Shown here in pieces: positions 751 to 17,963 of a stretch of 24,221 bases of DNA. The first letter of the stretch is position 1. Each line of letters opens with the position of its first letter. The DNA comes from a virus: positions 1 through 24,221 of the IMG/VR virus record IMGVR_UViG_3300046097_000096; one strand, written 5' to 3'. The position numbers were made by a program, and so were the translations under genes. Below the pieces are notes generated by a model that ran no database searches, was not told where the DNA came from, and worked only from the letters and a program-made list of their open reading frames with translations.

Positions 751-792
751 TCTTTTACTTTACTGTCTACCTCCTAAAAAGGATCAAGCGAA

Positions 793-2115
793 ATGACATC
801 ATGCGGACCATACAAACAAACAGCAGGCGGATGCGTACCCCACACGGAAGTGTTTTGGGCGCGCAAAGAATCAGACGCCTCTCCTGTCTTACTCTACTTG
901 CAAGTGACCTGTGTTGCAGGTCGTGCAGTCAAGACCCTGACTACCGATAAGGCTGGAACAACTCCGGCCGTTGGTTATACCGAAGCCGATAAGATTGGCA
1001 CTGTCATTAAGGGTGAGCGCGGCGCTTCTTGCGAAGACCCAGTTCATGTTAAGATTTGCGCTCCTGCCACAACGTACGACCGCGAGTTCGCTATTCTTTG
1101 CGCACCAGACGGTACTAAAGTTGCTGTTCAAAACGTGACGCCAGTAGATGCGCCACTAGGCACTGCCCCCACGTTTGAGGCATGGACATTAGATAGTACG
1201 GCTTACACTGGCGCTATTGCAGCATTGACCAACTGCGGTTCTGAAAAGATTGATGTAACTGCTACTCAATGGTTCTGTGCTAACAATGCCCCTATTTCAC
1301 GCACAGACTTCTGGGATGTGTTCTCTACGCCTAAAGCTCTTATTGGCAGCTTGTGGCAAGATGCAGCTGGCGATATCGTACCTGCACCTGCTGCTGGCAC
1401 GTACACACAAGGTGAATGCGCTAAGTGTGAAGTCACCAAACACTTTGAATTTGCTTGGTACAAAGAAGGTACTGCATGCCGCAAGATTGAAGTCTTAAAG
1501 ATTGTTGATTGTGACGATAACTTGACGCTCAAAGGCTTTGAGATTAGCGGCGCACCGATTGCAGCCTTTGACCCGCTGAACTTGTTTGCTGGTGAAGCCA
1601 AAGAACTCATGCGTGATATTTGCGTCACCCTAAAAGCAGTTGCACCTGCTACTAATGGTGTTCGTTGGGACTTGAAAGAAGTAACTACTACAACTCCATG
1701 CGGTGATACAACGGTTAAATACTTTGACCCTGATGTTAGCCCTATGGTCGAAGTAGCAGAAGATTTGATTGAGTGTATCAATGGTGAGGGTAAATGCCCT
1801 TGCTGCACTGAAACAACGCCCGTAGCCGCCCGCAAGGTGTCAGTCTACCTGCAGAGCAACGGCGGCACTGTGTCTATGGCAGACATTATAGCGGCCGTTG
1901 GCACTCAGAAAGTTCAATCAGTCACAGTGAAACAAATCTCTGGGCGCGGACACGTGGCCGCGGATGCCGGCTCTGGTGTTCCACTCGACACCGGCGAAAC
2001 TTGGAGCTGGAGTGCTATTACAGGCTCTGACGTTTGGGACCACCTTGGGGCATCTGCTCTGAGTATGGATGCTGGAGGCGGAGAACAACGCATCACAGCA
2101 ACGTATATTTTGTAA
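793..2115 (+). CDS. Cys-rich presumed virion protein, unrecognised
   Basis: 440 residues with about 18 cysteines, including CNGEG-like spacing near residue 330 and a KCPCC cluster close by. There is no signal peptide or membrane segment. The C-terminal ~90 residues (from VAARKVSVYLQSNGG) look like a compact beta-rich domain, with a segment around GETWSWSAITGSDVW that resembles the small beta-sandwich ends of phage surface proteins. A Shine-Dalgarno (AAAGGA) lies about 10 bases before the ATG and can form a short 4-bp hairpin with the TCCT just upstream. It opens the fibre block directly after the TerS-like gene. A structural role (collar, fibre base or head decoration) is inferred from position. 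I recognise no family. Confidence 0.7.
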   Translation: MTSCGPYKQTAGGCVPHTEVFWARKESDASPVLLYLQVTCVAGRAVKTLTTDKAGTTPAVGYTEADKIGTVIKGERGASCEDPVHVKICAPATTYDREFAILCAPDGTKVAVQNVTPVDAPLGTAPTFEAWTLDSTAYTGAIAALTNCGSEKIDVTATQWFCANNAPISRTDFWDVFSTPKALIGSLWQDAAGDIVPAPAAGTYTQGECAKCEVTKHFEFAWYKEGTACRKIEVLKIVDCDDNLTLKGFEISGAPIAAFDPLNLFAGEAKELMRDICVTLKAVAPATNGVRWDLKEVTTTTPCGDTTVKYFDPDVSPMVEVAEDLIECINGEGKCPCCTETTPVAARKVSVYLQSNGGTVSMADIIAAVGTQKVQSVTVKQISGRGHVAADAGSGVPLDTGETWSWSAITGSDVWDHLGASALSMDAGGGEQRITATYIL

Positions 2116-2132
2116 GTTAACTAAGGAAAATT

Positions 2133-2570
2133 ATGTCAATCACAAACGGAAGTTTTTCAGCGCCAATCGCACCAGACTTGGCAAAAGAGTTGGAATCGCA
2201 AGTTGGAACAATCGTTGCTGGCGCTGGCGCTGCAATGGTATTCAACAACCTGCAACCACAGCAAGGCGCAACCATCTATAACGTGTCCAACAACGTCATT
2301 CGCGGCACTGTCATGCTGACCGCTGGCACAGTAGCTGTGGGTGCTGCTGCTACCCGCACTTTCACCGTACCCGCTGGCGGCACATACAGTTTTGACTTGG
2401 CTGATGAAGGTGTTACCGATTCAGCAACTGGGGCTATCGGCTCTATCGACAGCATCAGTATTGTGCCGGTAACTGTACCTGCTGCGGCTGGTGTGGTTGA
2501 AGCCTCCGTGTTGGCTGTGGCTGCCGCAGCAACCGCAGGTTATGTTGTGGTCAACTGGGCTTCTGCCTAA
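2133..2570 (+). CDS. Small Ala/Val/Gly-rich presumed structural protein
   Basis: 145 residues, starting 17 bases after the previous stop with a clear AAGGA site 7 bases before the ATG. The composition (Ala, Val, Thr, Gly) and alternating hydrophobic pattern suggest an all-beta protein. The C-terminal Ala/Val-rich stretch is not a convincing membrane helix. There are no catalytic motifs and no cysteines. It lies between the Cys-rich protein and the main tail fibre and is followed by a strong hairpin. A virion accessory or fibre-attachment role is possible from context only. Confidence 0.65.
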   Translation: MSITNGSFSAPIAPDLAKELESQVGTIVAGAGAAMVFNNLQPQQGATIYNVSNNVIRGTVMLTAGTVAVGAAATRTFTVPAGGTYSFDLADEGVTDSATGAIGSIDSISIVPVTVPAAAGVVEASVLAVAAAATAGYVVVNWASA

Positions 2571-2578
2571 GTCAGGCT

Positions 2579-2618
2579 AGAGCGCCTTGGTTCTAGCCAC
2601 TTTGAGCTAGGGCGCTCT
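2579..2618 (+). terminator. Two-tier hairpin after the 145-aa gene
   Basis: AGAGCGCC (2579-2586) pairs perfectly with GGCGCTCT (2611-2618). Inside, CTAGC (2593-2597) pairs with GCTAG (2606-2610) around an 8-base loop, with a six-base bulge (TTGGTT) on the 5' side only. No U-run follows, so it may be a pause, processing or mRNA-stabilising structure rather than a true intrinsic terminator. The next gene has its own Shine-Dalgarno site just downstream. Confidence 0.6.
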
Positions 2619-2642
2619 GTCAAGAATTAACAGGAGTAACGC

Positions 2643-2891
2643 ATGAGTTTAACAGTCGGAACAAACGGCATCATTGCGCAGGAAAACGATGTTGTACAGC
2701 TTACCCGGCCGTTGGTGGCTGGTGATAACGTCATCATAACACCTCTAGGCACACCCGTCTATGAGGTTGAAGTTCGCAACAACGCAAACGGAAACATCAT
2801 CACAGCGGCAGTAGTTGCCCAGACAACTACTAGCTTCACAATAAACGTAGCTGTAGCTGTTGCGCAAGCTCAAATCCTCTGGGATAGGTAA
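2643..2891 (+). CDS. Small beta-rich protein preceding the tail fibre
   Basis: 82 residues with an AGGAG site 8 bases upstream of the ATG. The sequence (VVQLTRPLVAGDNVIITPLG, then EVEVRNNANGNIITAAVV) has alternating hydrophobic residues consistent with a small beta-sandwich, with no cysteines and no membrane segment. It ends 9 bases before the 982-aa fibre gene, so the two are probably co-translated. It could be a fibre-attachment or head-fibre protein; I cannot assign a family. Confidence 0.6.
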   Translation: MSLTVGTNGIIAQENDVVQLTRPLVAGDNVIITPLGTPVYEVEVRNNANGNIITAAVVAQTTTSFTINVAVAVAQAQILWDR

Positions 2892-2900
2892 GGCAATATC

Positions 2901-5849
2901 ATGGCAGCATTAGAAATCAATTCAGCTTTATTGCGCGAACGAATCCCCACTATCACCCTTGGCGCTTCTGGTGTTGTGGGTACGGCAGCGGCGACCGTAG
3001 ATATTGTCAGCAACATTGGTGTGACAGCATCTGCGGCGGGGCTTACGTTTACGCTACCTAACCCAACTGACACGCGCTCAGGATTGAGTACAGTAGTTAT
3101 GAACACTGGCGCCAATATTTTTTCGATGTACGCAAACTCGGTTAAGCCAAGTCAATACATTGAGTTGATTTGGGGTATTGAAGATTTATCATGGCACAGC
3201 CCTTCAGTTCCACAAGAGAGCGCCGCTGACTTTTGGCGCTCAGGCTCCCTTGCAGGTATTACACCGGATGGTGCAACCGACACACAAGACGCTATTTTCC
3301 GCTCAGGCCAAACAGTCGTTGATACAGGCACGGTAGCAGACTCAGGCTTGACACTGGACGACCTGCGCGCGACCCACGCAAACATCTCATACATGAGCAG
3401 TATGGTTGAGAATCAGAACACGGCTATCGGCGTCAACAACGCAGGTAAAGTTGTGCTGGCCAACGGCGTAGGGGTACCAGACGTTCGCGCAACTAACTTG
3501 AACCCGCAAGACTACGCTGCAGGTGTGAGCCAAGCATTCAAGCAAACGTCAGCAATAGGCATGACCGGCATCACCGGGCTACAAACCTATGTAAACCTGA
3601 CAACAACACGCCGCTACGCAACGACAACAGATTTCTCTGGCGGACCAGTGCGCCAAGACGTAGACCTCGATGATGGTCGTCAGTATTTCCGCGTTAGCAC
3701 AGGTGCTACAACTTGGGGTCCTTGGTTGCTAGAAGCATCAGGCCGCGCGCGCAATTTGCAAGAGCGATTCACTTCTCAGGCCACAACCAAAATCAGTTTA
3801 GCGGGTGAAGTACGGTGGGACGGCTTCTACCATGTGATGACACGCGGCACCAACAGCGTTGAGCCTAATGGGCATTTCCGCATTGATATGCCTGCAGATG
3901 CTTTTGCAGTGCCTGTCGCAGGCGGTGGCACACGGGCAGTTGTACCAGCAGTAGCGGGGTCATCCGTAGACACCGGTGGCATCCTGCTAAACACTTGGGA
4001 TTCTCTGTACTACAAACACCCAGTTGGCCAAAGCGCCGGCTCAGTGCCAGCTAACTTTTTGATTGTTCCCTATCTGGCAAACACCCAAGCCAACAGCGTT
4101 TTCACAGAGGCTGACGACTGGATTATGGTGGCTCGCCGTGGCGACGCATCCGAGTTCACACTCGGCACAGGCGACGTAACAGGTATAGGCGGACAGGTCG
4201 GACGCGGCGGCTTTATTAGCACGGCCAATTGGCAAGCTATGAAGCAGCGCGTCATGGGCGACGGTTATTTCTTTGTGCCCGCAGGCAACTCTGCTTTCAA
4301 CCTAGCGTTTGGCTTCACTGGCACTATCCGTTGGATTGACGGTGGCTCAACGCCTGGCGTAAACAGCACAGGCTACGTGGACGCAGGCCAAGCAGACAAA
4401 CTAGTCGGCAAGGCAATTCGTGGCGTCAACGGCGCAGCCAATCGCGCATGGCGATTGATGACAGCCGCTGAGAAACCAGGATGGTTCGGCGGTGCACAGC
4501 GAGGCACAAACCCTATCCTTGCTGCATCAACAACCGTTGTAGATTTGAACGACAACGAAACGCTGTACTACGTTCGCAACATGAACGGCGCGGCAGGACA
4601 AGGCGAGTGGGTTGTAGCCGGGTACTCAGGCTTAGTGTCCACACCGATCCACTGGTTACCTATTGCATCCAAACAAACAACAGGTGGACATAGCACAACA
4701 CAGTTGCTCCTCGGCGGTGTGCAGTACGCACTTAAAGCAGGCGACGCACGATACACCTCCACCAACGACGCTGCTATCGACGCAATTCGTAAGACGCAAA
4801 ACATCACGCACAAAGGCTTGAAGTATTGCCGCTTTGCGTTGGCTACTCAGTTCGCAGGCGCAGGAGCTAACGGATTACTCAGCTCAGCGTTCGGCATTTA
4901 CTCGTCTTGGGATGACAACACCCTGATATACGGCATCAGTGATGGGTACAGCAATTTCGGAAACCAATACACGTGGTTAAACCCGCCTACAAACGGCTAT
5001 CAGATTCCTGCCGTATCAACGAACAGCAACGTAACACGCACAGTAAAAACCATTGGGGGTCGTCGTTACATCCCATTAGGTGTGTGGGAAGCGCTGTTCT
5101 GGATTCCACCAGCGTACACTGGGGGCACTACGTCAGTGGATGGTGATTGGGTAATCAGCTACTACGGCTCAGGCAACCAACACCTGCCACCGTCAGCTGT
5201 CATGGTGCTCAAGTACGCGGGCGCTGTGTCTAGTGCGTCAGGCATAGGCCCTGCGAAGACACGCATCAAGTTTGCGGACGGCACATACATGCAGCCAGGG
5301 TACACGTACCCGCCATCTCTGGCTACAGAGTTTGAGTATGATATGGCTCAAGGCTCTGGCGACTGGCGTGCAATCACTGTCGCAGGCGGCACAGTAGCTG
5401 CTCGTACATCACCCGGTATGACAGCGCCTATGACGGCCGTCGCCGGAGTAATTGGTAACTACGGAGCACCCTACAGTGCGTTCTTCCGCTACCTACCGAA
5501 TGACAGTGACCCTCGCGGGCAGATTGAAATAGAGGGTTTGATTTCTCTCGACGGTGACGTTGCTAACGGCTCCGTTATTGCGTTTCTGCCGGGTGTGTTT
5601 GTGCGGGGCAACCCTATCCAGATGGCTCAGCTTACAGCCAGCACATTTGCAGACGCAAAGAACATTCCTGTACAGATACGCTACAGCAACGCCACAATCA
5701 ATGGTCAAAGCGGAACGCAGGTTGTAGCCCAGTCAGGCTTCATTGGAGCAAGCAACCCATACCGAACGCTTGGCGCTAACGGCGGAGCCTCTGCGGCAGG
5801 CGTAAACCAATGGGTATCACTTGGACCTTTAACACTACCGCACGCCTAA
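2901..5849 (+). CDS. Tail fibre with pyocin-knob domain
   Basis: 982 residues. The N-terminal ~130 residues probably form the virion-attachment part. Residues about 190-280 (GVGVPDVRATNLNPQDYAAG to TTWGPWLLEASG) match the pyocin-knob pattern seen in phage and pyocin fibres, with the closing W-GPW typical of that domain. The long remainder is beta-rich, with many Gly, Thr and aromatic residues, as expected for a receptor-binding shaft and tip. Only one Cys is present, unlike neighbouring virion genes. The Shine-Dalgarno is modest (TAAGG). A shorter fibre gene with a different C-terminal end follows, so the virion may carry two fibre types or a branched fibre. Confidence 0.85.
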   Translation: MAALEINSALLRERIPTITLGASGVVGTAAATVDIVSNIGVTASAAGLTFTLPNPTDTRSGLSTVVMNTGANIFSMYANSVKPSQYIELIWGIEDLSWHSPSVPQESAADFWRSGSLAGITPDGATDTQDAIFRSGQTVVDTGTVADSGLTLDDLRATHANISYMSSMVENQNTAIGVNNAGKVVLANGVGVPDVRATNLNPQDYAAGVSQAFKQTSAIGMTGITGLQTYVNLTTTRRYATTTDFSGGPVRQDVDLDDGRQYFRVSTGATTWGPWLLEASGRARNLQERFTSQATTKISLAGEVRWDGFYHVMTRGTNSVEPNGHFRIDMPADAFAVPVAGGGTRAVVPAVAGSSVDTGGILLNTWDSLYYKHPVGQSAGSVPANFLIVPYLANTQANSVFTEADDWIMVARRGDASEFTLGTGDVTGIGGQVGRGGFISTANWQAMKQRVMGDGYFFVPAGNSAFNLAFGFTGTIRWIDGGSTPGVNSTGYVDAGQADKLVGKAIRGVNGAANRAWRLMTAAEKPGWFGGAQRGTNPILAASTTVVDLNDNETLYYVRNMNGAAGQGEWVVAGYSGLVSTPIHWLPIASKQTTGGHSTTQLLLGGVQYALKAGDARYTSTNDAAIDAIRKTQNITHKGLKYCRFALATQFAGAGANGLLSSAFGIYSSWDDNTLIYGISDGYSNFGNQYTWLNPPTNGYQIPAVSTNSNVTRTVKTIGGRRYIPLGVWEALFWIPPAYTGGTTSVDGDWVISYYGSGNQHLPPSAVMVLKYAGAVSSASGIGPAKTRIKFADGTYMQPGYTYPPSLATEFEYDMAQGSGDWRAITVAGGTVAARTSPGMTAPMTAVAGVIGNYGAPYSAFFRYLPNDSDPRGQIEIEGLISLDGDVANGSVIAFLPGVFVRGNPIQMAQLTASTFADAKNIPVQIRYSNATINGQSGTQVVAQSGFIGASNPYRTLGANGGASAAGVNQWVSLGPLTLPHA

Positions 5850-5859
5850 AGGATTTAAA

Positions 5860-5895
5860 ATGTTGTCAGTTAAATTTTTACATAAAGGAAAATAA
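5860..5895 (+). CDS. Possible 11-codon leader ORF before the S74 fibre
   Basis: ATG at 5860 has an AAAGGA site 7 bases upstream and reads MLSVKFLHKGK before TAA at 5893-5895. The last codons (AAA GGA AAA) form the Shine-Dalgarno of the fibre gene starting at 5899, three bases after the stop. Ribosomes finishing this mini-ORF would occlude or hand over to the fibre start, so coupling or control of fibre expression is plausible. A chance ORF of this size is also possible. Confidence 0.3.
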   Translation: MLSVKFLHKGK

Positions 5896-5898
5896 ATT

Positions 5899-7380
5899 AT
5901 GGGAATCGCACAATGCACCCCTACCGCTACACCGCTATCATGCCCTGTAGTAGTAGCATGTATCACAGCTCAACCTACTGGAGCACCAGTAACTAGGGAT
6001 GAGCTAGTGCTCGGAGGCGATGGAGAGTTTCACTCGCTTGAGACTAAGCTAGATGTTACGCGACTTTACGGAACGGCACCTAGCGGTACGGATACTAGAG
6101 GCGTGGAGTTTACATTTTCAGAAACAACCGGCGGGCTGAGGGTTGGCGGAAGCGACTCTACCTCTTTGGACGACCAAAAAAACTTTTGGCGTGGGCTTTC
6201 CGCAGGGCAGAACACTAATGCGTGGGGTTCATTAGCTGACCAAGGGCTGTACTCAGTTGCATTTGGAAGAAACGGGGCTAGTAAAGGTGTGTACTCATCT
6301 ACATTTGGGCATGACTGCGTATCTTACGGAGTAGCTAGCATTGCTGGCGGTGCGGGGTCAGCAACGGGTAATCCAGATGCGCCCACAAACCCAGACAATG
6401 AAGGTTATTGCTCTATAGCATGGGGCAAAGGAACTATAGCACTGGGAGCAAAGTCAGCCGCTTTTGGCGAAGAGAATGAGGGGCTAGCTCGCGCCGGTTT
6501 AGTAGCTGGATACCAGAGTAAGACTGGCTCTGTGGGCGCTGATGAGGGCGTAGGCGCAATAGCACTTGGTAGAACTGTATTAGCGTACGGAACTGGCGCT
6601 TTTGGAGGAGGCAAGGAGTTACACGTAACTAATGGCGGCGCAGCACTTGGCAGTGGTATCAATTCTGGCAATCCAATGGTTGTGTCCGATGAAGTAGGTA
6701 TCGGCGCAAATGTTGCATTACCTACAGCGTATGCTACGCCGGGAACAGGGGCGGTAGATAATTATGGAGTATTTGGGGTTCGGGCGGAGAAGCAAGAATA
6801 CTTAGGGGGTACGACGCTAGTAGTTGCAGAGACAACACAGTCATTGGTTAATGGCGGTGCTGGCGGGTATGGAGAATACCACATACGCCCCAGAGTTGCT
6901 GGAGTTATTGTTGATGGCTGGAAAGTAGAGGGCGTAGCTTCGGCTGGAGTAGTATCGCTTATACCTGCGGTAGATGCCGCAATGCGCCTAGGTGCGCCTA
7001 GCAATCGAATCGACTATGCGTTTTTCGTGAATGCCCCAATCATCACCTCAGACGAGCGAGAAAAAGAAAGCGTAGGCGATATTACAGATACTGTACTTGC
7101 TGCGTGGAGTAAGATTAACTATCAGCAATACAAGTTGAAAAATCAAGTTGCCAGTGCTGGAGATTCTGCGGTTACCCACTTTGGTGTGATAGCGCAACAA
7201 GTAATTTCCGTCTTTAAAGAGTATGGGGTAGACGCTTTACAGCTGGGGCTTGTGCAGCTTAACAAGTGGGTGGACGCAGGCGGAAAAGCATGCGAGATGT
7301 ACGGAGTTAACTACACGCAAGCGATGGTCTTAGAGTGTGCTTTACTGCGAAAAAGGCTTGACACGCTAGACGTAAAGTAA
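5899..7380 (+). CDS. YadA-like fibre with C-terminal S74 self-cleaving chaperone
   Basis: 493 residues. A Cys-containing N-terminus is followed at about 115-260 by YadA-head-like repeats (VAFGRNG, STFGHD, IAWGKG, AAFGEE, IALGRT), a trimeric left-handed beta-roll pattern. The C-terminal ~110 residues are an S74 intramolecular chaperone: S384-D385 and K389 in TSDEREKES form the expected Ser-Lys dyad, so cleavage after T383 is predicted once the trimer has folded. GVIAQQV further on is also typical of the family. The Shine-Dalgarno is AAAGGA. It looks like a receptor-binding fibre or spike acting with the upstream pyocin-knob fibre. The gene ends with a helical stretch (LLRKRLDTLDVK), and a coding-like sequence continues in the +1 frame. 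Confidence 0.85.
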   Translation: MGIAQCTPTATPLSCPVVVACITAQPTGAPVTRDELVLGGDGEFHSLETKLDVTRLYGTAPSGTDTRGVEFTFSETTGGLRVGGSDSTSLDDQKNFWRGLSAGQNTNAWGSLADQGLYSVAFGRNGASKGVYSSTFGHDCVSYGVASIAGGAGSATGNPDAPTNPDNEGYCSIAWGKGTIALGAKSAAFGEENEGLARAGLVAGYQSKTGSVGADEGVGAIALGRTVLAYGTGAFGGGKELHVTNGGAALGSGINSGNPMVVSDEVGIGANVALPTAYATPGTGAVDNYGVFGVRAEKQEYLGGTTLVVAETTQSLVNGGAGGYGEYHIRPRVAGVIVDGWKVEGVASAGVVSLIPAVDAAMRLGAPSNRIDYAFFVNAPIITSDEREKESVGDITDTVLAAWSKINYQQYKLKNQVASAGDSAVTHFGVIAQQVISVFKEYGVDALQLGLVQLNKWVDAGGKACEMYGVNYTQAMVLECALLRKRLDTLDVK

Positions 7381-7480
7381 TCTTAAAGATATACAAAATA
7401 CGGAACACGTAAGATTGGAAGCTGCAAATTGCGCAGTCGCTGCCAGCATTGACCCGTCAGTTGTTTGTGATTTCAACTAA
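7376..7480 (+). other. Coding-like +1-frame extension of the S74 fibre
   Basis: Immediately after the fibre's terminal codons, the +1 frame is open for 34 codons (SNLKDIQNTEHVRLEAANCA, then VAASIDPSVVCDFN). It ends with TAA at 7478-7480, only 2 bases before the ATG of the next gene, which has no Shine-Dalgarno. There is no ATG of its own, and the upstream boundary in this frame is a TAA at 7373-7375. This suggests either a former C-terminus cut off by a one-base indel or a +1 frameshift at the AAG-TAA end of the fibre. No independent gene start is visible. Confidence 0.4.
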
Positions 7481-7482
7481 TT

Positions 7483-7731
7483 ATGCTTAAACAAACTTTT
7501 TGCTTCTTTTACACTTTATTTCTATCTAAGCTAGTTGATAGTAAGGATGACCCGCTTGTAAGGTTAATCGACTTTACGGCTGGGTCTACTTGCAAATACT
7601 GTTTAGCCCTAAGATTCGGCATGATTTGTGGCGGGTTAGGCTTGTTTAATTGGTGGGGCTTAGGTTTAATTGTTACAGCTATTTTGCTGACTATAGGTGA
7701 AAGAAAGTGGTTGTGTGATGTCAAGTCATAA
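7483..7731 (+). CDS. Small membrane protein at head of lysis cassette
   Basis: 82 residues. A hydrophobic N-terminus is followed by a polar stretch (SKDDPLVRLIDF), a CKYC pair (C37, C40) and two closely spaced hydrophobic segments (about 44-55 and 57-72), the second ending before a basic tail. The ATG has no Shine-Dalgarno, and the preceding +1-frame coding stretch stops 2 bases upstream, which would fit translational coupling. It overlaps the next gene by 14 bases. Membrane location and position suggest a lysis accessory such as an antiholin or second holin; I cannot name a family. Confidence 0.65.
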   Translation: MLKQTFCFFYTLFLSKLVDSKDDPLVRLIDFTAGSTCKYCLALRFGMICGGLGLFNWWGLGLIVTAILLTIGERKWLCDVKS

Positions 7732-8023
7732 TTCAGTTAATTCAGATAGCGTCGTAAACAAGGCGCTTGAGTCAATGCCAAGATTTGCCTGGGCTTTCAT
7801 GGGAATTATGTTTTCAATTGTAATTTTCCTAATGTTTTCTGGTCTTGATGGTGCATTTACGAGAGTTGTAAATGCATACGCTACAAGAATAGAGCGCTCC
7901 GTTGAACAGCTGGAAGCTTTTTCAACTCGCGTGACAACACTGGAAGCCAGGATAACTGCTGCTGAAAAGCGTATTGACCCAATAGAAACAGAAAATCGAC
8001 AATACCACAGGGGCTTAAAATGA
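7718..8023 (+). CDS. Membrane-anchored coiled-coil protein of lysis cassette
   Basis: 101 residues from the ATG at 7718. A GTG at 7697 in frame would add seven residues but has worse upstream spacing. One transmembrane helix (about 23-41, FAWAFMGIMFSIVIFLMF) is followed by a long heptad-like helix (about 55-95, with LEAF, VTTLEARI, AAEKRI). One TM plus a soluble coiled coil recalls i-spanins and holin-associated proteins, but Rz/Rz1 are encoded further downstream. It may therefore be a holin regulator. The stop overlaps the holin start as ATGA, so translation is coupled to the holin gene. Confidence 0.65.
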   Translation: MSSHNSVNSDSVVNKALESMPRFAWAFMGIMFSIVIFLMFSGLDGAFTRVVNAYATRIERSVEQLEAFSTRVTTLEARITAAEKRIDPIETENRQYHRGLK

Positions 8024-8235
8024 GTGACCACGTTATACAGGTTGTCGCAAAAACTGGTATGGTCAGTGGCGCAGGTGCTGGTGGCATTGGTGCATGGACG
8101 CTCAACGAGTACCTAGCTGTAGGGGGTTTTATTATTGCAACAGTAGGCTTCGGCGTCAGCTGGTACTACAATTGGAAAGATGACCGCCGCAAAGAGCTGG
8201 AGCATAAGATGCGCCTCCGAAATATGCCGCTATGA
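8020..8235 (+). CDS. Holin, HP1-type
   Basis: 71 residues. A Gly/Ala-rich first segment (about 10-26) is followed by a clear transmembrane helix (about 30-50, EYLAVGGFIIATVGFGVSWYY), then a short basic tail (NWKDDRRKELEHKMRLR). This layout, including the WYY-x-W-K-D boundary, is that of HP1-family (class II/III) phage holins, which open the inner membrane at a programmed time. Start and stop overlap the neighbours as ATGA on both sides, placing it directly before the endolysin. A weaker first hydrophobic segment could act as a signal-anchor-release (pinholin-like) helix, which would suit the SAR-type endolysin that follows. Confidence 0.82.
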   Translation: MSDHVIQVVAKTGMVSGAGAGGIGAWTLNEYLAVGGFIIATVGFGVSWYYNWKDDRRKELEHKMRLRNMPL

Positions 8236-8723
8236 ATCCACGTTTAGCTTCAGGCGCCGCTGCTGCGCTTTTAGGATTGGGGGCAATAACAAACGTTTGG
8301 TTGGCTACCCCTCCTCCGCCTAACAAGAAGCTAGCTTTGCTCCAAGCTCAGTGCAACGTTTTACATAACGCGGTTATGACCGAACTGGCCAAGCAGGGGA
8401 TCTACTTCAAAGCTGGCGAAGCTCAGCGAACAAAACAGCAGGCATCCTGGTATGCCTCGCAGGGCAAAGGAATCAAAGACTCCGCGCATATCTACTCACT
8501 AGCTTGGGATTACCACCGTGTTCTAGCCGATGGCACCTACAGCACGCTGCCTTCCGATTATGAAGCCTATGGTCAAATGTGGAAAGCGGCTGGCGACCAG
8601 CTGGCTTTAAAAAGCATCAAGATGGGGCTAAAACCTGAGCTACATACTAACTGGGGCGGTGACTTTGCCCGCTTAAAAGATTATAACCATATTTCTTGTA
8701 CAACCCGAACGGGATCTAAATGA
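8232..8723 (+). CDS. SAR-type endolysin, M15-like zinc peptidase
   Basis: 163 residues. Residues 5-25 are an Ala/Gly/Leu-rich weakly hydrophobic segment without a clear signal-peptidase site, typical of signal-anchor-release endolysins. The catalytic domain follows the VanY/L-Ala-D-Glu peptidase pattern: GEAQRT (62-67), then SAHIYSLAWD with H86 and D93, and DYNH with H153 as the third zinc ligand. The usual SxHxxGxAxD motif has Ser in place of the second-position Gly (S89). It would cut the peptide stem of peptidoglycan. The start overlaps the holin stop. The first GATC after the 7.6-kb GATC-poor block lies inside this gene, so the module junction may fall near its 5' end. Confidence 0.85.
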   Translation: MNPRLASGAAAALLGLGAITNVWLATPPPPNKKLALLQAQCNVLHNAVMTELAKQGIYFKAGEAQRTKQQASWYASQGKGIKDSAHIYSLAWDYHRVLADGTYSTLPSDYEAYGQMWKAAGDQLALKSIKMGLKPELHTNWGGDFARLKDYNHISCTTRTGSK

Positions 8724-8863
8724 AAACCTATCTGGCCTTCATTTTCTTAGCTTTATTTTCCTATATGGGGATCACCAGCGCCAATGTCTTCTTAGCCCGG
8801 TCGGGCGGGTGCCGAAGCATGCTGGTGGTCTCTACCCAACCCTTTTGGGGGGTACTTTACTGA
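8720..8863 (+). CDS. 47-aa membrane/signal-like small ORF
   Basis: The ATG at 8720 overlaps the endolysin stop as ATGA, as several neighbouring genes do. The product starts MKTYLAFIFLALFSYMG, a strongly hydrophobic helix after a single Lys, continues through SANVF (possible signal cleavage after Ala21), and has a short tail with one Cys and FWGVLY at the end. Its last 21 bases form the 5' arm of a long hairpin. It could be a small lysis accessory protein; no family is recognised. The phased overlap is the best evidence that it is translated. Confidence 0.5.
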   Translation: MKTYLAFIFLALFSYMGITSANVFLARSGGCRSMLVVSTQPFWGVLY

Positions 8864-8905
8864 AGGTGCCCAACCGTAAGGCCTACCCCATTGTACCCCC
8901 TAAAA
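8843..8905 (+). other. Long 13-bp hairpin between lysis genes
   Basis: Bases 8843-8855 (TTTTGGGGGGTAC) pair with 8893-8905 (GTACCCCCTAAAA) over 13 positions, with a single G-U wobble, around a 37-base loop. The 5' arm is the end of the 47-aa ORF. No U-run follows the 3' arm. It may set the relative level of upstream lysis genes versus downstream ones by pausing, termination or RNA stability. Confidence 0.55.
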
Positions 8906-8965
8906 TCCCAGTTATCTTTCGTTTATCTCCGTTATAACCCCAACCTTTAACCCTAGGAGCCTACT

Positions 8966-9625
8966 ATGAACCCGAATATAATCCCTTGGCTAGCAGCAAT
9001 AGCTATCTTTGCCTTAATCGCAGTGGTTATCCATCAGGACCGTAAGAGCAACAAAAAGAAGGATCCTGATCCTGTAACTCCCGAAGCCCCCCCTTACCCC
9101 TGCATTATCGAGGGATCCTTTTCTTGTCCGGATCGAGCAGCGGCCATAGCTTCTCGAAATGCGCGAATCCTTAGTAAAGGGCTAGCTCTGATAACTCCAG
9201 ACGAGCCGGATAACAATGCTCACCCAAACAATACAGCCTTAGGTGGAGGAACTCCGTACGGGGGTATATACCTGGCCGGAAATCTGCGCCTTGAGGTTGG
9301 GGCGGATGGGCAGATTAAACAAGGGTCGTATATCACGGTCTTCTCTAATGAGCAGTTCGCCGTTACCGGCGGTATCGAACCTACCGGTAAAATAGGCATG
9401 GCATCCATCGTAGGAGTTAGTATTGGTGGCAGCGTATCTAAAGAAGGTACCGTCCGTGTCATAGTCTCCGAAGGTGGACCAACCGCCAACCGTAGTCCAG
9501 AGGCTAACGATCCCCTATGGAAAGGGCTGTCTCCTGTTGACCAAGCTAACCTCTCCGGCAATGTATTTGGAACAACGATCCAATACGTGCATGGTGTGGG
9601 CAACCCGACCTACGCCCGATCATGA
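8966..9625 (+). CDS. Unknown membrane-anchored protein in lysis cassette
   Basis: 219 residues, with AGGAG 9 bases before the ATG. One transmembrane helix (about 7-24, PWLAAIAIFALIAVVIH) is followed by a very basic stretch (DRKSNKKK). Under the positive-inside rule, the C-terminal ~180 residues may lie in the cytoplasm. The soluble part has a CIIEGSFSC pair, a linker, then a Gly-rich region with regular strands (GGIYLAGNLRLEVGADGQ, TGKIGMASIVGVSIGGSVS) suggesting a beta fold. It overlaps Rz by ATGA. Placement between endolysin and spanins suggests lysis control or a superinfection function; neither can be shown from sequence. Confidence 0.7.
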   Translation: MNPNIIPWLAAIAIFALIAVVIHQDRKSNKKKDPDPVTPEAPPYPCIIEGSFSCPDRAAAIASRNARILSKGLALITPDEPDNNAHPNNTALGGGTPYGGIYLAGNLRLEVGADGQIKQGSYITVFSNEQFAVTGGIEPTGKIGMASIVGVSIGGSVSKEGTVRVIVSEGGPTANRSPEANDPLWKGLSPVDQANLSGNVFGTTIQYVHGVGNPTYARS

Positions 9626-10161
9626 TCACATCCTTCTTAATCACCCTTTGGGGGAGCAACCTCTTTCGCCAGGGGCTTGCTTTAATAGCAGCCTTCTTCA
9701 CCATCTGGTATCTTATAGCTACCTACAACAACTGGGTAATAGAAGAAGCCTTGGAAAAGAACGACGCTGAATGGACTTTGGTTGTTCAAGCCGAAAAAGA
9801 TAAGTATCTAAAATACCTAGCCGATCAAGAAATCCTACGTACCCAAGCTATAGAGGCCAACGCCAAGAAAGTAAAAGATGAACAACACAAATACAACCTT
9901 GCCCTACAAGAAGTCGCTAAGGTATCGGCTGAGCGCGATATCCTTAGGAGTAGCCACGCTAGTCTTACAAGCATGCTCGACTCTGTCGCAGCCGGCAGTG
10001 CCTGTACAACTGGAGACCGCTACTGTCGAATCATTTCAGGACTCCGAGACACACTACAAAAGTGTGAACGAGGATTTGATCGAGCTCTCGGAATCGCAGC
10101 GCAGGAGGCTGACCGAGCTCGTAAATCTGCTGCAGCCGTCGAAGCCCTGAAAAGAAAATAG
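9622..10161 (+). CDS. Rz: i-spanin (Rz-like)
   Basis: 179 residues, with an N-terminal transmembrane helix (about 14-35, LFRQGLALIAAFFTIWYLIA) and a long, highly charged coiled coil (about 45-115, rich in Glu, Lys and Ala). Two cysteines lie near residues 129 and 135, with another at about 148. This is the standard i-spanin layout: it sits in the inner membrane and spans the periplasm to meet the outer-membrane lipoprotein o-spanin, fusing the membranes in the last step of lysis. An o-spanin gene lies entirely within it in another frame. The TAG stop (10159-10161) is part of the AAAATAGGATCTAAATA promoter element of the next transcription unit. Confidence 0.85.
   Translation: MITSFLITLWGSNLFRQGLALIAAFFTIWYLIATYNNWVIEEALEKNDAEWTLVVQAEKDKYLKYLADQEILRTQAIEANAKKVKDEQHKYNLALQEVAKVSAERDILRSSHASLTSMLDSVAAGSACTTGDRYCRIISGLRDTLQKCERGFDRALGIAAQEADRARKSAAAVEALKRK
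9878..10150 (+). CDS. Rz1: o-spanin lipoprotein (Rz1-like), nested in Rz
   Basis: 90 residues, in a different frame and wholly inside the Rz gene. The N-terminus has Lys/Arg (PYKKSLRYR), a hydrophobic core (LSAISLGVATLVL) and a lipobox LQAC with the lipidated Cys at 33. The mature protein is small and polar. It is predicted to sit on the inner face of the outer membrane and bind the Rz C-terminus. Fully embedded Rz1 genes are known from lambda-like phages, so this overlap is expected rather than odd. The Shine-Dalgarno is weak (GAAAG-type). Confidence 0.85.
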   Translation: MNNTNTTLPYKKSLRYRLSAISLGVATLVLQACSTLSQPAVPVQLETATVESFQDSETHYKSVNEDLIELSESQRRRLTELVNLLQPSKP

Positions 10162-10204
10162 GATCTAAATATCTTCTAAGGATACTGGCCTAACCCCGTA
10201 TAAT
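10155..10204 (+). promoter_or_regulatory. Putative phage promoter P2 upstream of large terminase
   Basis: A perfect TATAAT lies at 10199-10204. Exactly 32 bases upstream ends a GGATCT box (10161-10166) within AAAATAGGATCTAAATA, 17 bases identical to the element at P3 near 16590. The hexamer at the -35 spacing (CTAAGG) is not consensus. Predicted transcription starts near 10211, about 23 bases before the ATG, with no Shine-Dalgarno in between. The TAG of Rz is part of the box. Confidence 0.65.
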
Positions 10205-10233
10205 GTAGCCTTAACCGCCCAACCCTTAACCCA

Positions 10234-11802
10234 ATGCTAGAAGACCTTTCCACTATAGATCCAAGCATGCTGCCATTTGCGGGAATGAACCCGCAGGATG
10301 CCATGTGGAACTTGCCAGCATTGGGGACTAAGGTTAAGATCTTGGACAAGGGCGGGCGCTTTATTCCTTTTGTGATCAATGATGCCCAGCGCAAGGTATG
10401 GGCTAAGATGGAGAAGGTTCGTTTCGAGAAGAAGCGTACCCGCCTCTTAGTCCTAAAAGCTCGCCAGCAAGGGATCAGCACTGTAATAGCTTTGGATGAT
10501 TTCCAGAAGGCGGCATTCCACTCAGGATCCCGAGTTCAGGTCATGACCCATTTGGACGATACCACTTCCGCTCTCTATGGTATGATCCAACGGTATTATG
10601 ATACCTTTCCTGGATCATCTCGTTGGCTACCGACCACCTCTTATAGCCAGAAGGGTTTGGAATTTAAGAACTCGCAGTCAATAGTTAAAGTAGCAACAGC
10701 AGGGTCAGCTACGGTCGGTCATGGCTTGACCATTACCAATTTTCATGGATCAGAGGTATCCCGCTGGTCTAATATGGACTTACACCTGTCTGGTATTATG
10801 CAAGCCGTTCCCGACACTCCTGGATCCTCTGTAATCTTAGAATCTGTGGCCAACGGACGCGGCGATGGTTGGCATAAACTTTGGCAGGGCGGGGTAGCTG
10901 GTATCAATGACTTCGATACTGTATTCGTGCCTTGGTTCCTAACTAGTGAATATGCTTCCGTTCCGGCACCTGATATTGAATTCGATGATGCTGAAATTAA
11001 GTATGCCCACCGCTTTGGACTAGACGACTGGCAGATGGCATGGCGCCGCCGTAAGATCTTAAACGACTTCGATGGTAATGCCTCTAAGTTTGCACAGATG
11101 TATCCAGCAAGTGCCGACGAGGCATTTGCACGTTCCAGTAATTCCTTAATCTCTGCCACCAAAATCGAAGAAGCTTTCAAGCGGATAGTAGATGGGCGCG
11201 GAAACATCTTAGCTGGTTACGACCCAGCAGGTGGAGGAAAAGACCGCGGGTGCTTAATTCGCCGCCAAGGCAATAAAGCCTATAACACCCAATACAACAA
11301 AGAGCCTGACGCAATGGTGCAGGCCGGCATGTTGGCTAAGGTACTATCCACGGAGCGCATCCGGATGCTCTTTATCGATGCAACCGGTGCCTCTCTCGGC
11401 CGCGCTATTGTCAACCGTCTGCACGAGCTTGGTTTTACCGACCGCGTTACTGCAGTAGGGTTTGCCGACTCCGCAGATGAAGAAGATGCCTATATTAATA
11501 AACGCGTTGAGATCTGGTACCGTATGAAGGAATGGTTTGGCGGAAACGTATCCTGCCAAAACGACAGCGCATTGGAACAAGATCTATTAGCACCTAACGA
11601 AATAGATAACGATAGTAATAACCGCCGCCGTGTTGAGTCTAAAAAAGACATGGCTAAACGGGGTATACGTTCACCGGACGGTGGGGATGCCTTAGCCCTT
11701 ACCTTTTCCTACACGGTGGCTGATCCAGAAGTAGTTAACATGGCGCGTTCCCTAGGGTTGGGCGCAGGACACGTGGCTCGCCGCGCAGGAGTAAAGCATT
11801 GA
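10234..11802 (+). CDS. terL: Terminase large subunit (TerL)
   Basis: 522 residues with both terminase domains. The ATPase part has a terminase-style Walker A (KARQQGIST, 75-83), a Walker B-like TITNFHGSE with E174, and the coupling motif ESVANG (203-208). MYPASADEAFAR (about 289-300) matches the conserved segment before the nuclease. The RNase H-like nuclease shows GYDPAGGGKDRG (D330), FIDATGASLG (D382) and SPDGGDALALT (D482, D485). It powers DNA packaging and cuts the concatemer. There is no Shine-Dalgarno before the ATG and P2 lies just upstream. The stop overlaps the portal start as TTGA. The TerS-like gene is far upstream, an uncommon separation. Confidence 0.93.
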   Translation: MLEDLSTIDPSMLPFAGMNPQDAMWNLPALGTKVKILDKGGRFIPFVINDAQRKVWAKMEKVRFEKKRTRLLVLKARQQGISTVIALDDFQKAAFHSGSRVQVMTHLDDTTSALYGMIQRYYDTFPGSSRWLPTTSYSQKGLEFKNSQSIVKVATAGSATVGHGLTITNFHGSEVSRWSNMDLHLSGIMQAVPDTPGSSVILESVANGRGDGWHKLWQGGVAGINDFDTVFVPWFLTSEYASVPAPDIEFDDAEIKYAHRFGLDDWQMAWRRRKILNDFDGNASKFAQMYPASADEAFARSSNSLISATKIEEAFKRIVDGRGNILAGYDPAGGGKDRGCLIRRQGNKAYNTQYNKEPDAMVQAGMLAKVLSTERIRMLFIDATGASLGRAIVNRLHELGFTDRVTAVGFADSADEEDAYINKRVEIWYRMKEWFGGNVSCQNDSALEQDLLAPNEIDNDSNNRRRVESKKDMAKRGIRSPDGGDALALTFSYTVADPEVVNMARSLGLGAGHVARRAGVKH

Positions 11803-13766
11803 AAAAAATACTGTCCACCGGCAATAAAGAAAAGTTGGCTATAGCGGTTCGCAACCGTTTTACCAACGATGCCGCGTTTCGGAATAAAACAAAACTGATG
11901 TCTGGTCTGAACTTTATCCAATGGTGCGACGCCATAGATAGGATGATGGCCAAGGAACACGAACCTAACGAACTCCAAGCTATTCCTGAAATGGTGCGGT
12001 ACTTTGGTTTGGGGGTTACTCGCGTAGATGCCACTGTGGCTTGGCGCCAAGATTTACTCTTAAATACCTCCGAGGCGCCATTTAGTCTTAAACCTACCGC
12101 TATACCAACTCTTTCGCCTATGGTGGTCAAAGACGTAGCCCAGAAAATCCAGCAAGAACTTTGGCTCCGCCTTAGCGGAAATATGGGCGTAGACCAACTG
12201 GTCTCCAATGGCGTTCCAATTAAGCCTGTGCAGGACTTCATCAAAAGCCAAGCACCTCGCATGAAGAAGACTCAAGCTGAGTTCTTAATGCGTGCTGCTC
12301 AGGAAGGGGCACTGGACGCTGAGACCCATGTTAAGGATATCACCTCTGAGGGTGGATGGCGCAAAGCCTTTTGGGAACTCCAAGCCCAGCAAACATTGTA
12401 CCCTGTGGCTATCCTTTGTGGTCCAGAAATTGTTCCATCGCATCTTAAAGAGTACACCCCTAGCGGCGGCGTAACCTACAAGAAGGGGCTGAGCCAGCAA
12501 TGGCGCACGGTTAATCCGCGCAACTTTTACTTTGGCTCAGATAGTACAAGCGCTAATGACGGAAGTGGCTGCACCGAAATTCGGTACAAATCACGCGCTC
12601 GTTTAATAGCTGCTATGGCGAATGAGGCCTATGATGCTAAAGCCATCAAATCCGTTCTAGACGAATTTCAGAATGCCTCGCGCGACTGGCTATCCCTCTC
12701 CTATGACGAGTCCCACCAACAGGTAGCATGGGGGGCTAACCCTAATCTAGAGATAGCGGTACTCCTGCACCATGGCCAATTCTCCGGAGCCGAACTTGAA
12801 GAAGCTAATATCACCGGATTAGACCGCTACAAGATGTACGAAGTACGCATGGAGGTAATTGGCTCTAACGTAATATATTGTGGACTAAGTGACTTCCAAG
12901 ACTCCGGTTCAGGTAAAGACGTCCAACAGGCGCGACCTTATTTTAGTACTAGCTGGAAGGTTAATCACGGTTCTCCTTATGGGCGCTCTTTGGGCATGCT
13001 CTTACGCGACCCGCAGCTAGTACTAAACCGCCTCCACTACTATATTATGGCAAACGCTTACAACGCGCATTTGCCTATGCTGGAGTTAGCTTCAGCCCGT
13101 TTGTCCTCTCCTTCTGATTGGTTCTACCAACCTGGATCTGCTTTCGAAACCCGTTCAGAGGCTAAGATTGAAGGGGAGAGTTCCGCCCTGCGAATCCATC
13201 AGACTCCTCAGAGCTTTGGGGCTTTAACTAACCTCTTTGTTACTCGCATGAAAATGGTGGACGACGAGATTGGGATCACAGCGGTGAGTTATGGATCTAT
13301 GGTCATGACCCCTGATGATAAGACCTTGGGTGGGCAACTCCAGCGTATTAGTGGATCAGCACGCGGATTAAAAGACGCTATTTACAACCAAGACCTACAG
13401 GTTATTGAACCCAGTATTGGGCGCTGCGTGCATATCCTCCAGAAGGCCGGAAAGATCACTGGCGACATTAACGTTGAAGCGCGCGGCGCTACTAGCTTAA
13501 TCCAAAAAGACGTGGTACAAGAATCGCAACGTGCCATCCTACCTATCCTCGGACAAACCGCTGCTCAGATGCCAGAGTTCCAGGCAGCTCATAAAGAGCT
13601 CCTGAGCCAGGTATTCTCCAGCATGGGTGTCCCTCGCGATCTCCTCCCGAGCTCTGCCCTAGAGCAAGAATTCACAGATGCTGGCTTATTGGGGTTACCA
13701 GCAACACCGCAACAAAAAGCAGACGGCAGAAGCCTTAATGCAGATCAAATTGGAGGTACTCTATAA
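11799..13766 (+). CDS. Portal protein
   Basis: 655 residues. The start is TTG at 11799 with a good GCAGGAG site; the TerL TGA overlaps it. A segment near the middle (about 380-430: YFSTSWKVNHGSPYGRSLGM, then LLRDPQLVLNRLHYYIMANA) is typical of podovirus portal proteins. EIGITAVSYGSM and a C-terminal helical barrel-like region follow. It would form the 12-fold ring through which DNA is packaged and to which the tail adaptor binds. It ends at TAATG with the DUF11 gene, with GGAGG upstream. Length and position (TerL-portal-scaffold-capsid) fit; the identification is from pattern and order. Confidence 0.85.
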   Translation: MKKILSTGNKEKLAIAVRNRFTNDAAFRNKTKLMSGLNFIQWCDAIDRMMAKEHEPNELQAIPEMVRYFGLGVTRVDATVAWRQDLLLNTSEAPFSLKPTAIPTLSPMVVKDVAQKIQQELWLRLSGNMGVDQLVSNGVPIKPVQDFIKSQAPRMKKTQAEFLMRAAQEGALDAETHVKDITSEGGWRKAFWELQAQQTLYPVAILCGPEIVPSHLKEYTPSGGVTYKKGLSQQWRTVNPRNFYFGSDSTSANDGSGCTEIRYKSRARLIAAMANEAYDAKAIKSVLDEFQNASRDWLSLSYDESHQQVAWGANPNLEIAVLLHHGQFSGAELEEANITGLDRYKMYEVRMEVIGSNVIYCGLSDFQDSGSGKDVQQARPYFSTSWKVNHGSPYGRSLGMLLRDPQLVLNRLHYYIMANAYNAHLPMLELASARLSSPSDWFYQPGSAFETRSEAKIEGESSALRIHQTPQSFGALTNLFVTRMKMVDDEIGITAVSYGSMVMTPDDKTLGGQLQRISGSARGLKDAIYNQDLQVIEPSIGRCVHILQKAGKITGDINVEARGATSLIQKDVVQESQRAILPILGQTAAQMPEFQAAHKELLSQVFSSMGVPRDLLPSSALEQEFTDAGLLGLPATPQQKADGRSLNADQIGGTL

Positions 13767-16144
13767 TGGCAACCACCCCTAAACCCTACAGCAAGATCCT
13801 ATTCCAGAAAGGGCAGGCCGACCTAGTTAGTGCTCCTTTCTACGTAGGCGAAAATCGCGTAGCATTATCAGCATTCGCTAACGGTACCGGACTTCCACCA
13901 GGAGCCCGAATAACTTTCCAAGAAGTGGTCTTCGTAGACGGTGGGCGCTCTGATGGCACCCTATGCACACCGGGGCAGCAGCACGACTCCAAGCAGTATG
14001 ACTACAAGCCCTTTGTGTCGTGCGGATGCGAGCCTGCCCTAACAGAGCGCCTTAGCTACATGGAGATAGATCGAGCAGGATGGTACCGCGCAGTATATGT
14101 TGGACCTTCCCGAGCTTCCGTAATGCTTACCGTTATGGAACTTAGCGTCCAAGCTGGCACTGGCTGCTGCTCTAAACCATGCTGCCCCATCGAGGTAGAC
14201 TTGGTCATCGATAAGGCTGTGTCTTCGGAGGTAATCGTATCGGGGGGTACCGGATACTTCCTGCTCACCCTTTCCAACCTTGGACCAGATGCTTCCAGAG
14301 GGGGTTACATCAAAGATGTCTTGCCCGCAGGGCTTACCTACGGTGTTCCCGTAGCGGTGTATGCAGGGCTAGCTGCTGGATCACAGCCTACCATTGCTCA
14401 GATGATAGCTGGGGACTGGCATTACACCTCGCTGCCACCGGGCGGTACCATTACCATCACCATTCCGTTTACAGCTACTTCACCGGGCAGTTGTATCCCT
14501 CGATCCAATACCGCCTCTATCCATCCTGGTAAAGACGAAGTAGATACTAACTGGGTCAACAACACTGATACCGTATTCTATAACATCATCAAACCAACGG
14601 CTGATGTAAGCATCACGAAGACCGCAGCCAACGCCACCCTGAAAGAAAACGACCCTTTCAGCTATACCCTTGTGGTTAGCAACGCCGGTCCACGCCCCGC
14701 CGACGGTACCATAGTCACCGATGTGATCCCTACTGGCTTGGTAGTCTCCAACATTGTGGCTACCTATGCCAGTGGCGCTGCGGGGGCTCAACCCACACAG
14801 GCTCAGCTAGCCGCTGGCTACACTATCCCCACGCTACCGGCACTGGGCACAGTCACCATTGTGGTTACCGGCATCGCGCCTACCGCAGGCTACTACCTCA
14901 ACTCGGCCTCTATCAAGATGCCAGCAACTGTGGATGACTCTGACCCTACTAATAACACGGCTAGTGCCTCCTTGACCGTTGGTGGCAGTAGCGTTGACCT
15001 AAGTGTTAGCAAGACTGCGGATAAGACCTCCTACGGTATCGAGCAACTCGTTACCTACACTATCCCCTTCTCTAATGCCGGACCAGACGCTGCCAATGGC
15101 GCTATCCTAAAAGATACCCTTCCCGCTACCCTTTCCGACATAATCATAGACGTTACCTTTAGCGGTGGGGCTGCCGCACCGGTGCCCTCTGTCGCGACCT
15201 TGGCGGCTGGCTGGGTAATCCCCACCCTCCCTGCTGGTGGCGCAGGAACCTTGGTGATCTCTGGGTTTACTACGGTAACCGGTGTACTCACTAATACGGT
15301 GAATATCATACCCCCTGCGGGGAGCGTAGATATCAATCTCAGTAATAACAATGCTACCGCTATCGTGGTAGTTAACCAATCGTCTAACCGCGATTTATGT
15401 GACGCCCCTATAGACGCCGGAGCTAAATACCTAACTCAGGCCAGTGTGGTGGTCTGTGATGCTGGGGTCGAACGCCCTATTCAGTGTGGAGATAAGCTCA
15501 GGGTTGTCAGTGATTGCTGCGAGGTTACCCTAGAGGTGACTGGTGACAGTGCGGGGCAATCCTTTGCGGCGTGCATTGGGGTTATCCCGCAAGCATTTGA
15601 CGCTAAAGGGCGAATCATTATACAAGGGCGCGATGCCTCAGTTGTATCAGGCGCAGCTAATTTGGTTACCAATGGTATTGCGCAGAACCTTATTACCGAA
15701 ACCATAACTAACAATTCTACCTGCCCAATGCTAGTAGAGTTTTACCTAAGACCTATTGCCAATCAAATTCCGCCAGATTTTGTAAGCCCTCAAAACGTAA
15801 CCTTTGTCTACTCTATCGGGGAGACCTTGGCTTTACCTGTCCTTGGAGTTGGATCAGGAGAAGCTGGTTCACCTTTAAACCAGTCGGTTAGCCACTTAAC
15901 CGTATCATTCGTAGGCGCGAATGCAACGCCAGTTGAGGGGCAAGTAAACTCCGTCGGTATAGCTGGGCAGGCAAACGGGGCACCAGCTATCTACCGAAAA
16001 CAATTAGCGCCGGGGCAGACTGTTACAGTTTACGGACAGTGGTGGGTCGTTATATACCAAAACTCTATAACTCCTGGAATGACTACTATTCACGCTGGAT
16101 CCGCTTTAGAGGTTCGAAAATATATAGGAGGAAGATTACTATGA
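13766..16144 (+). CDS. DUF11-repeat virion surface-type protein
   Basis: 792 residues, 15 cysteines. The N-terminal ~140 residues contain clustered Cys (SCGC near 85; GCCSKPCC at 133-140). Three DUF11-type Ig-like repeats follow at about 145-275, 278-405 and 409-540. Each opens with DLxIxK/DVSITK/DLSVSK, then xNxGPxxAxGxxxxDxxP, and carries an inner (Q)PTxAQxxAG...LPxxGT motif. The C-terminal ~245 residues form another Cys-containing region. DUF11 repeats are usually found in bacterial surface proteins. Here the gene is fused into the head operon between portal and scaffold, overlapping the portal by one base, so it is probably a head fibre or decoration that touches the cell or substrate. 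The exact virion role is unknown. Confidence 0.75.
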   Translation: MATTPKPYSKILFQKGQADLVSAPFYVGENRVALSAFANGTGLPPGARITFQEVVFVDGGRSDGTLCTPGQQHDSKQYDYKPFVSCGCEPALTERLSYMEIDRAGWYRAVYVGPSRASVMLTVMELSVQAGTGCCSKPCCPIEVDLVIDKAVSSEVIVSGGTGYFLLTLSNLGPDASRGGYIKDVLPAGLTYGVPVAVYAGLAAGSQPTIAQMIAGDWHYTSLPPGGTITITIPFTATSPGSCIPRSNTASIHPGKDEVDTNWVNNTDTVFYNIIKPTADVSITKTAANATLKENDPFSYTLVVSNAGPRPADGTIVTDVIPTGLVVSNIVATYASGAAGAQPTQAQLAAGYTIPTLPALGTVTIVVTGIAPTAGYYLNSASIKMPATVDDSDPTNNTASASLTVGGSSVDLSVSKTADKTSYGIEQLVTYTIPFSNAGPDAANGAILKDTLPATLSDIIIDVTFSGGAAAPVPSVATLAAGWVIPTLPAGGAGTLVISGFTTVTGVLTNTVNIIPPAGSVDINLSNNNATAIVVVNQSSNRDLCDAPIDAGAKYLTQASVVVCDAGVERPIQCGDKLRVVSDCCEVTLEVTGDSAGQSFAACIGVIPQAFDAKGRIIIQGRDASVVSGAANLVTNGIAQNLITETITNNSTCPMLVEFYLRPIANQIPPDFVSPQNVTFVYSIGETLALPVLGVGSGEAGSPLNQSVSHLTVSFVGANATPVEGQVNSVGIAGQANGAPAIYRKQLAPGQTVTVYGQWWVVIYQNSITPGMTTIHAGSALEVRKYIGGRLL

Positions 16145-16590
16145 AGTACGTAAAAAACTCAGCATTAGATGATTCTACCTTTACAGGGGTATCGCTTACC
16201 ATACTACCAGATGAAGCCCCTCTAAAGGGGTACCTGGCAGAGGAGATATCAAAGGAGGACTACCTAGTCTGGCAAGAGCGCATAGCTAATCCAGACAACA
16301 AGGTTTATTTTGCTGGTATTTTTCCGGGTATCGGGGTTATCAATGGGGCAACGCGAAAAGCACTAGATGCAAAAATTACAGAAGCCACCCTAGTACGGAA
16401 CAACAAACTAGACCACGCTAATCGTCTTCTCTTAATATTGGCTCAACGTGATGCCAAGGATATAGGGGAAGACCCGGAAGAAGTATTTGCGGCTAAGCAT
16501 CCACATGTGGGCGAGAGGGTTAAAGCTGAACTCTTCAAAGAACACCGCGCCAACCCATTTGCTAACGGGGAACCCCGCGGACCAAAATAG
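16141..16590 (+). CDS. 149-aa protein, unrecognised
   Basis: The start at 16141 is chosen because GGAGGA lies about 10 bases upstream and the ATG overlaps the previous TGA as ATGA; the frame is open further upstream (Met at 16039) but without such a site. 149 residues: an N-terminal part with beta pattern (TFTGVSLTILPDEAPLKGYL), then a mainly helical C-terminal half with many Lys, Glu and Arg, ending RANPFANGEPRGPK. There are no cysteines or membrane segments. The TAG stop forms part of the P3 GGATCT element. It may act in head assembly given position; no family is recognised. Confidence 0.7.
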   Translation: MKYVKNSALDDSTFTGVSLTILPDEAPLKGYLAEEISKEDYLVWQERIANPDNKVYFAGIFPGIGVINGATRKALDAKITEATLVRNNKLDHANRLLLILAQRDAKDIGEDPEEVFAAKHPHVGERVKAELFKEHRANPFANGEPRGPK

Positions 16591-16631: not shown

Positions 16632-16637
16632 ACCCCT

Positions 16638-16994: not shown

Positions 16995-17003
16995 GACTTA
17001 CCC

Positions 17004-17957: not shown

Positions 17958-17963
17958 AACATT

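Follow-up and report, generated by a model that had tools for sequence, protein, structure and literature searches.

The window analysed here is the whole of one IMG/VR virus record, 24,221 bases in length. A TerS-like gene lies in its left flank, followed by a cassette of adhesin-like genes, a tail fibre gene and a holin gene; to the right of this block are an endolysin gene, a spanin-like gene, the genes for TerL and portal, and head genes. Features of the window are given below, with loci used for comparison designated by L numbers.

286–750, + strand: TerS-like gene (terminase small subunit-like) in the left flank, with normal GATC (3 sites)
787–8398, no strand: GATC desert with one site (4646), its edges located only to within a few hundred bases
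793–2115, + strand: first cassette gene, 440 aa, parts of which are 38–44% identical to genes of L046–L049
1010–8156, no strand: segment of foreign 5-mer composition, scored with GATC-containing words omitted after training without cassette DNA
2133–2570, + strand: cassette gene, 145 aa, 91–94% identical in L046, L048 and L049
2643–2891, + strand: cassette gene, 82 aa, 89% identical in L046
2901–5849, + strand: large fibre/adhesin-like gene, 982 aa, 55–58% identical in L046, L047 and L049
5899–7380, + strand: tail fibre/spike with a Peptidase_S74 (endosialidase-type) chaperone domain (Pfam E 2.3e-14), no GATC
7483–7731, + strand: small ORF, no GATC
7697–8023, + strand: small gene with a predicted coiled coil, no GATC
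8020–8235, + strand: holin (Phage_holin_2_4, Pfam E 3e-11), the last gene entirely within the desert
8232–8723, + strand: endolysin, weakly M15-like, at the right edge, with its first GATC at 8399
10234–11802, + strand: terminase large subunit (TerL) of the resident genome, 13 GATC against 8 expected
11799–13766, + strand: portal/head–tail adaptor of the resident genome, ∼26% identical to the donor-group portal

The window contains 80 GATC sites, of which seven fall in positions 1–785 (at 216, 226, 236, 328, 337, 361 and 782), 72 lie from 8399 onward, and a single site, at 4646, interrupts a desert of ∼7.5–7.6 kb. The preliminary description of this DNA had reported one GATC in the desert where about 30 were expected, seven in 1–785 and dozens in the rest, and our counts bear this out, with 29.6 sites expected in 787–8398 from base composition. 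A maximal-order Markov model predicts 20.3 sites in this region (z = −5.6), making GATC the most depleted of the 256 4-mers and the only one to occur three times or fewer. It is also the lowest among the palindromic motifs tested in the desert, and neighbouring words are little affected. For the window outside the desert, the Markov model predicts 71.9 sites and 72 are seen (z = 0.0); GATC avoidance is not genome-wide, but is confined to the block.

The avoidance is synonymous. Shuffling that preserves the codons of the desert genes yields 19.0 ± 3.4 GATC sites, with a minimum of nine in 500 shuffles, compared with the one observed; the first cassette gene has none where 4.5 are expected, and the large fibre gene has one (the site at 4646) where 6.5 are expected. 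Genes outside the desert carry 68 sites against 66.4 expected from the same procedure. Within the desert, ATC is used for 1 of 23 isoleucines that follow a codon ending in G, as opposed to 43 of 102 isoleucines elsewhere in these genes, and outside the desert ATC is used for 27 of the 48 that follow such a codon. Similarly, GAT is never followed by C in the desert (0 of 56), compared with 23 of 132 cases in the rest. The scan statistic for GATC reaches 51.2, where the maximum in 2000 random placements was 25.3. It exceeds that of every other 4-mer in the window (the runner-up, CCTT, scores 32) and ranks first among 636 scans of 16 palindromes across the fetched loci.

The edges had been described as sharp. 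The desert is indeed bounded, but profile-likelihood ranges of 370–1210 on the left and 7970–8710 on the right mean that 'sharp' should be read as within a few hundred bases. Placement of the right edge in the 5′ third of the endolysin gene agrees with our data, as the GATC at 8399 lies one third of the way into 8232–8723.

Homologues of the cassette are present in L046, L047, L048 and L049. In L046, L048 and L049 the cassette lies downstream of a TerL/portal pair unlike that of the window, with a portal ∼26% identical and a TerL that gives no match to the window TerL; L047 gave no match to either the TerL or the portal of the window. Homologues of the block, in this case of the cassette only, are therefore found in phages with other flanking genes. 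The window and L046 are 88–94% identical around 2560–3260 and ∼60% identical thereafter, and on this pattern of identity the cassette copies are themselves mosaic. The closest donor DNA, 86% identical, is in L046, which has GATC outside its cassette. For 5899–8235 we found no DNA relative and no close protein relative, and no GATC-free contig with the entire block was found. The nearest relatives of the window TerL (L001–L003) are 32–37% identical and have no cassette gene in common with the window. No close relative was found among isolated phages, which match the large fibre weakly (Streptomyces phages) and the portal, TerL and S74 fibre distantly. The cassettes of L047 and L049 contain 10 and 15 GATC sites, with 12.8 and 15.8 expected. 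Because these other copies of the cassette have normal GATC, the lack of GATC is a trait of the lineage and not a constraint imposed by the fibre proteins, and we rejected the latter explanation.

A portal search of the group that carries the cassette, which we refer to as the donor group, recovered ten members and two distant ones. Three members have no GATC at any position: L048 (9,647 bases), L056 (7,679 bases) and L062 (7,301 bases), where 22.6, 18.4 and 15.2 sites are expected, respectively. The seven others (L046, L049, L057, L058, L060, L061 and L063) have normal GATC. Codon shuffling gives the same picture, with 0 sites seen and 22.2 expected for L048 and 31 seen and 29.7 expected for L046. 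The loss in L048, L056 and L062 extends over the TerS, TerL and portal genes. L048 and L056, which carry different sample numbers, are 99.6% identical over 6.9 kb, and in a TerL–portal tree they form one clade with L062, on long branches. L048/L056 and L062 belong to one clade yet are only 75.6% identical, and the purge has therefore been maintained over a long divergence. None of the 19–28 aligned GATC sites of normal members is kept in L048 or L062, unlike words of all kinds, which are kept at 26–35%. The GATC-free L062 and the GATC-normal L061 share a sample number.

Recombination has occurred between GATC-free and GATC-normal members. Over the first ∼600 aligned columns, the TerL genes of L061 and L063 are 78–84% identical to the GATC-free members, as opposed to 61–65% identical to L046, and contain no GATC; from column 800, identity to L046 is mostly 90–98% and GATC is normal. 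L061 and L063 thus appear to illustrate a TerL patch acquired from the GATC-free clade that ends where GATC resumes. This case illustrates the process but does not prove it alone, because the patch contains few sites. In L046, coding sequence 5450–7474, which includes the piece common to L046 and the window, has no GATC where 3.8 are expected (P = 0.005). A GATC-free end of 2.4 kb in L059 was discounted, since just 4.1 sites are expected there. GATC deserts also occur in a repetitive gene of a distant relative (L064 4132–6713 and L065 4612–7193); CATG is missing there too, and we set this case aside as probably a product of the repeats. HNH-type genes are found near TerL/portal in the donor group at L062 1368–2036 (NUMOD4/HNH_3 by Pfam) and L049 8056–8709 (HNH-like by eye).

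The donor group and the right-hand part of the window were also compared using a 5-mer score that skips all words containing GATC. This score, for which the right-hand part itself served as the contrast in training (with leave-out), is positive in every piece of 793–8235 and negative in 1–785 and 8236–10161; the left flank scores negative though it lies outside the training set. The maximum-scoring segment is 1010–8156 (shift p = 0.003) when training used parts of the relatives without the cassette and 774–8155 (p = 0.0008) when the cassette was included. The segment of foreign composition takes in 5899–8235, the region with no DNA relative found. The signal is not perfectly clean, because the score rises again at ∼18–19.6 kb. 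Composition other than GATC shifts at the borders of the block, independently marking an import.

A second word is missing from both parts of the window. GGSCC (GGCCC or GGGCC) is found at a single position, 5247, in the 24.2-kb record, where the codon shuffle expects ∼34; outside the desert (8399–24221) there are 0 sites compared with 25.4 expected, and within it 1 compared with 8.8. GGCC is likewise depleted on both sides. The window is the lowest in GGSCC among 52 loci or parts with sufficient expectation, and avoidance across a whole record is not seen in most of the sampled relatives: tested regions of L046, L047, L048, L049 and L062 have GGSCC close to the shuffled count, and L060 and L058 are somewhat low. 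This shared stamp suggests either that the imported block has been resident for some time or that its donor was under similar pressure. The preliminary description had viewed the resident packaging and head genes as free of the pressure acting on the block, a view that is right where GATC is concerned but fails for restriction-like pressure more broadly, given the avoidance of GGSCC across the window. An unrelated phage contig (L016) is depleted throughout in both words, with 14 GATC where 73 are expected and 2 GGSCC where 14.8 are expected.

We consider it probable that the fibre–holin segment recombined in from a GATC-purged lineage and that restriction best explains the purge. A donor phage lineage would have lost GATC throughout its genome by synonymous substitution during long exposure to GATC-cutting hosts, with DpnII/MboI-type enzymes as candidates, or DpnI-type enzymes if the DNA was Dam-methylated. 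The segment from ∼790 to ∼8150–8400, comprising the adhesin cassette, S74 fibre and holin, would have been acquired from this donor by recombination, and the resident genome (TerS, endolysin, TerL, portal and head genes) would come from a lineage without a GATC purge. A fibre–holin module shaped by pressure against GATC and later joined to packaging and head genes had been proposed in the preliminary description, and this gains support from the cassettes beside other TerL/portal types, the GATC-free clade among their carriers and the agreement of non-GATC composition. We infer which enzyme and host were involved, as well as when and in which direction the transfer took place; the direction, from the GATC-free lineage into the window genome, is read from flanks that are normal for GATC. 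A GATC-cutting enzyme in former hosts is the likely cause of the purge, because the loss is complete, word-specific, synonymous and lineage-wide, as with Type II restriction. GATC is under expectation in 46 of 46 phages whose hosts encode corresponding enzymes (PMC6286503). A host search using fibre and portal alignments against genome contigs found no relative.

Other explanations account for these observations less well. Chance, or codon and amino acid composition, has a negligible probability: the alanine/threonine-rich fibre proteins are compositionally unusual, but we found one site compared with 20.3 (Markov) and 19.0 ± 3.4 (codon shuffle, never below nine), together with a scan value that no random placement approached. 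The preliminary description had named agreement of GATC counts with local codon and base composition as what would refute it, and the counts show no such agreement. Both chance and composition were rejected on these three tests. It is very improbable that the fibre–lysis region was forced to avoid GATC in place, whether as the first DNA into the cell, facing the enzyme without protection, or because expression would be disturbed by methylation sites within it. The coincidence of the desert with a functional block running from fibre to holin favours such a constraint, but it is largely refuted by the near-expected GATC counts of the homologous cassettes in L047 and L049. In addition, the loss in L048, L056 and L062 reaches genes for TerS, TerL and portal, and composition other than GATC changes at the edges as well.

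The record is a metagenomic contig judged from its assembled sequence alone and the donor group includes GATC-free phages, so a chimeric assembly joining a GATC-free phage stretch to another phage must be weighed. We regard it as unlikely, since it requires two separate false joins, each falling between genes or close to where a gene begins and with a sensible gene order. The GGSCC stamp is common to both parts and is not shown by relatives of the cassette, and therefore argues against a chimera. Slightly less likely again is import of a segment whose GATC was removed by a process unconnected with restriction, for instance a mutational bias, cutting at this word during repair, or an enzyme that the phage encodes and that acts on the word. 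Genome-contig scans identified no restriction system or host, which would fit this alternative, but the loss hits one palindrome with little effect on neighbouring words, is complete in three contigs, and was kept over a long divergence, as is usual where Type II sites are avoided (PMC6286503).

Import from a GATC-purged lineage would bring together two phenomena, site avoidance and mosaicism, that are each well known already. Tailed phages evolve modularly (mosaic), exchanging tail-fibre and lysis modules. The window resembles such phages in having a host-recognition and lysis block flanked by packaging genes that are unrelated to it, and in that homologues of the block adjoin other types of TerL and portal, but differs in that its block has a restriction-avoidance stamp that delimits it even where there is no known DNA relative. 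GATC-specific restriction enzymes are of the DpnII/MboI kind, which act on unmethylated sites, and the DpnI kind, which act on methylated sites. The word lost from the window is exactly GATC, although genome-contig scans found no matching enzyme or host for this phage. Avoidance of restriction sites in phage genomes, with GATC among the avoided sites, has been documented by Rusinov et al. 2018 (PMC6286503), and the desert resembles such cases in the near-complete, word-specific loss of a Type II palindrome through synonymous replacements. In contrast to that study, which scores avoidance per genome and whose main text does not contain the words 'mosaic' or 'recombin', avoidance in the window is limited to one block in an otherwise GATC-normal genome. 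In open-licence papers we found no description of a sharply bounded avoidance block in a normal genome with both GATC-free and GATC-normal relatives.

Scoring of site avoidance is normally done genome by genome, but a stamp limited to a block shows that avoidance travels with recombining modules. GATC alone marks the origin of the block as well as its start and end, and such a stamp marks transfers even when no similar donor is known, as for 5899–8235. It also ties genes that determine host range to the restriction background of their evolution, and related GATC-free and GATC-normal phages make the rate and cost of site purging measurable. We give roughly even chances to the broader proposal that layered restriction-avoidance stamps record module ancestry, with GATC on the imported block and GGSCC on the whole genome. 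If this is true, the stamps on each module could reveal the restriction backgrounds through which each part passed, and in what order.

Three further features of the flanks were observed. Directly 5′ of the TerS-like gene, at 214–243, a 10-base unit (AGGATCTAAT) is present in three head-to-tail copies, which account for three of the seven left-flank GATC sites and could be a regulatory site. Between the portal and head genes, a 792-aa gene (13766–16144) contains three repeats of DUF11 (Pfam E 2.7e-51), a domain common in surface proteins. A 198-aa gene at 21700–22296 contains a short collagen-like run of GDKGDKGDK repeats.
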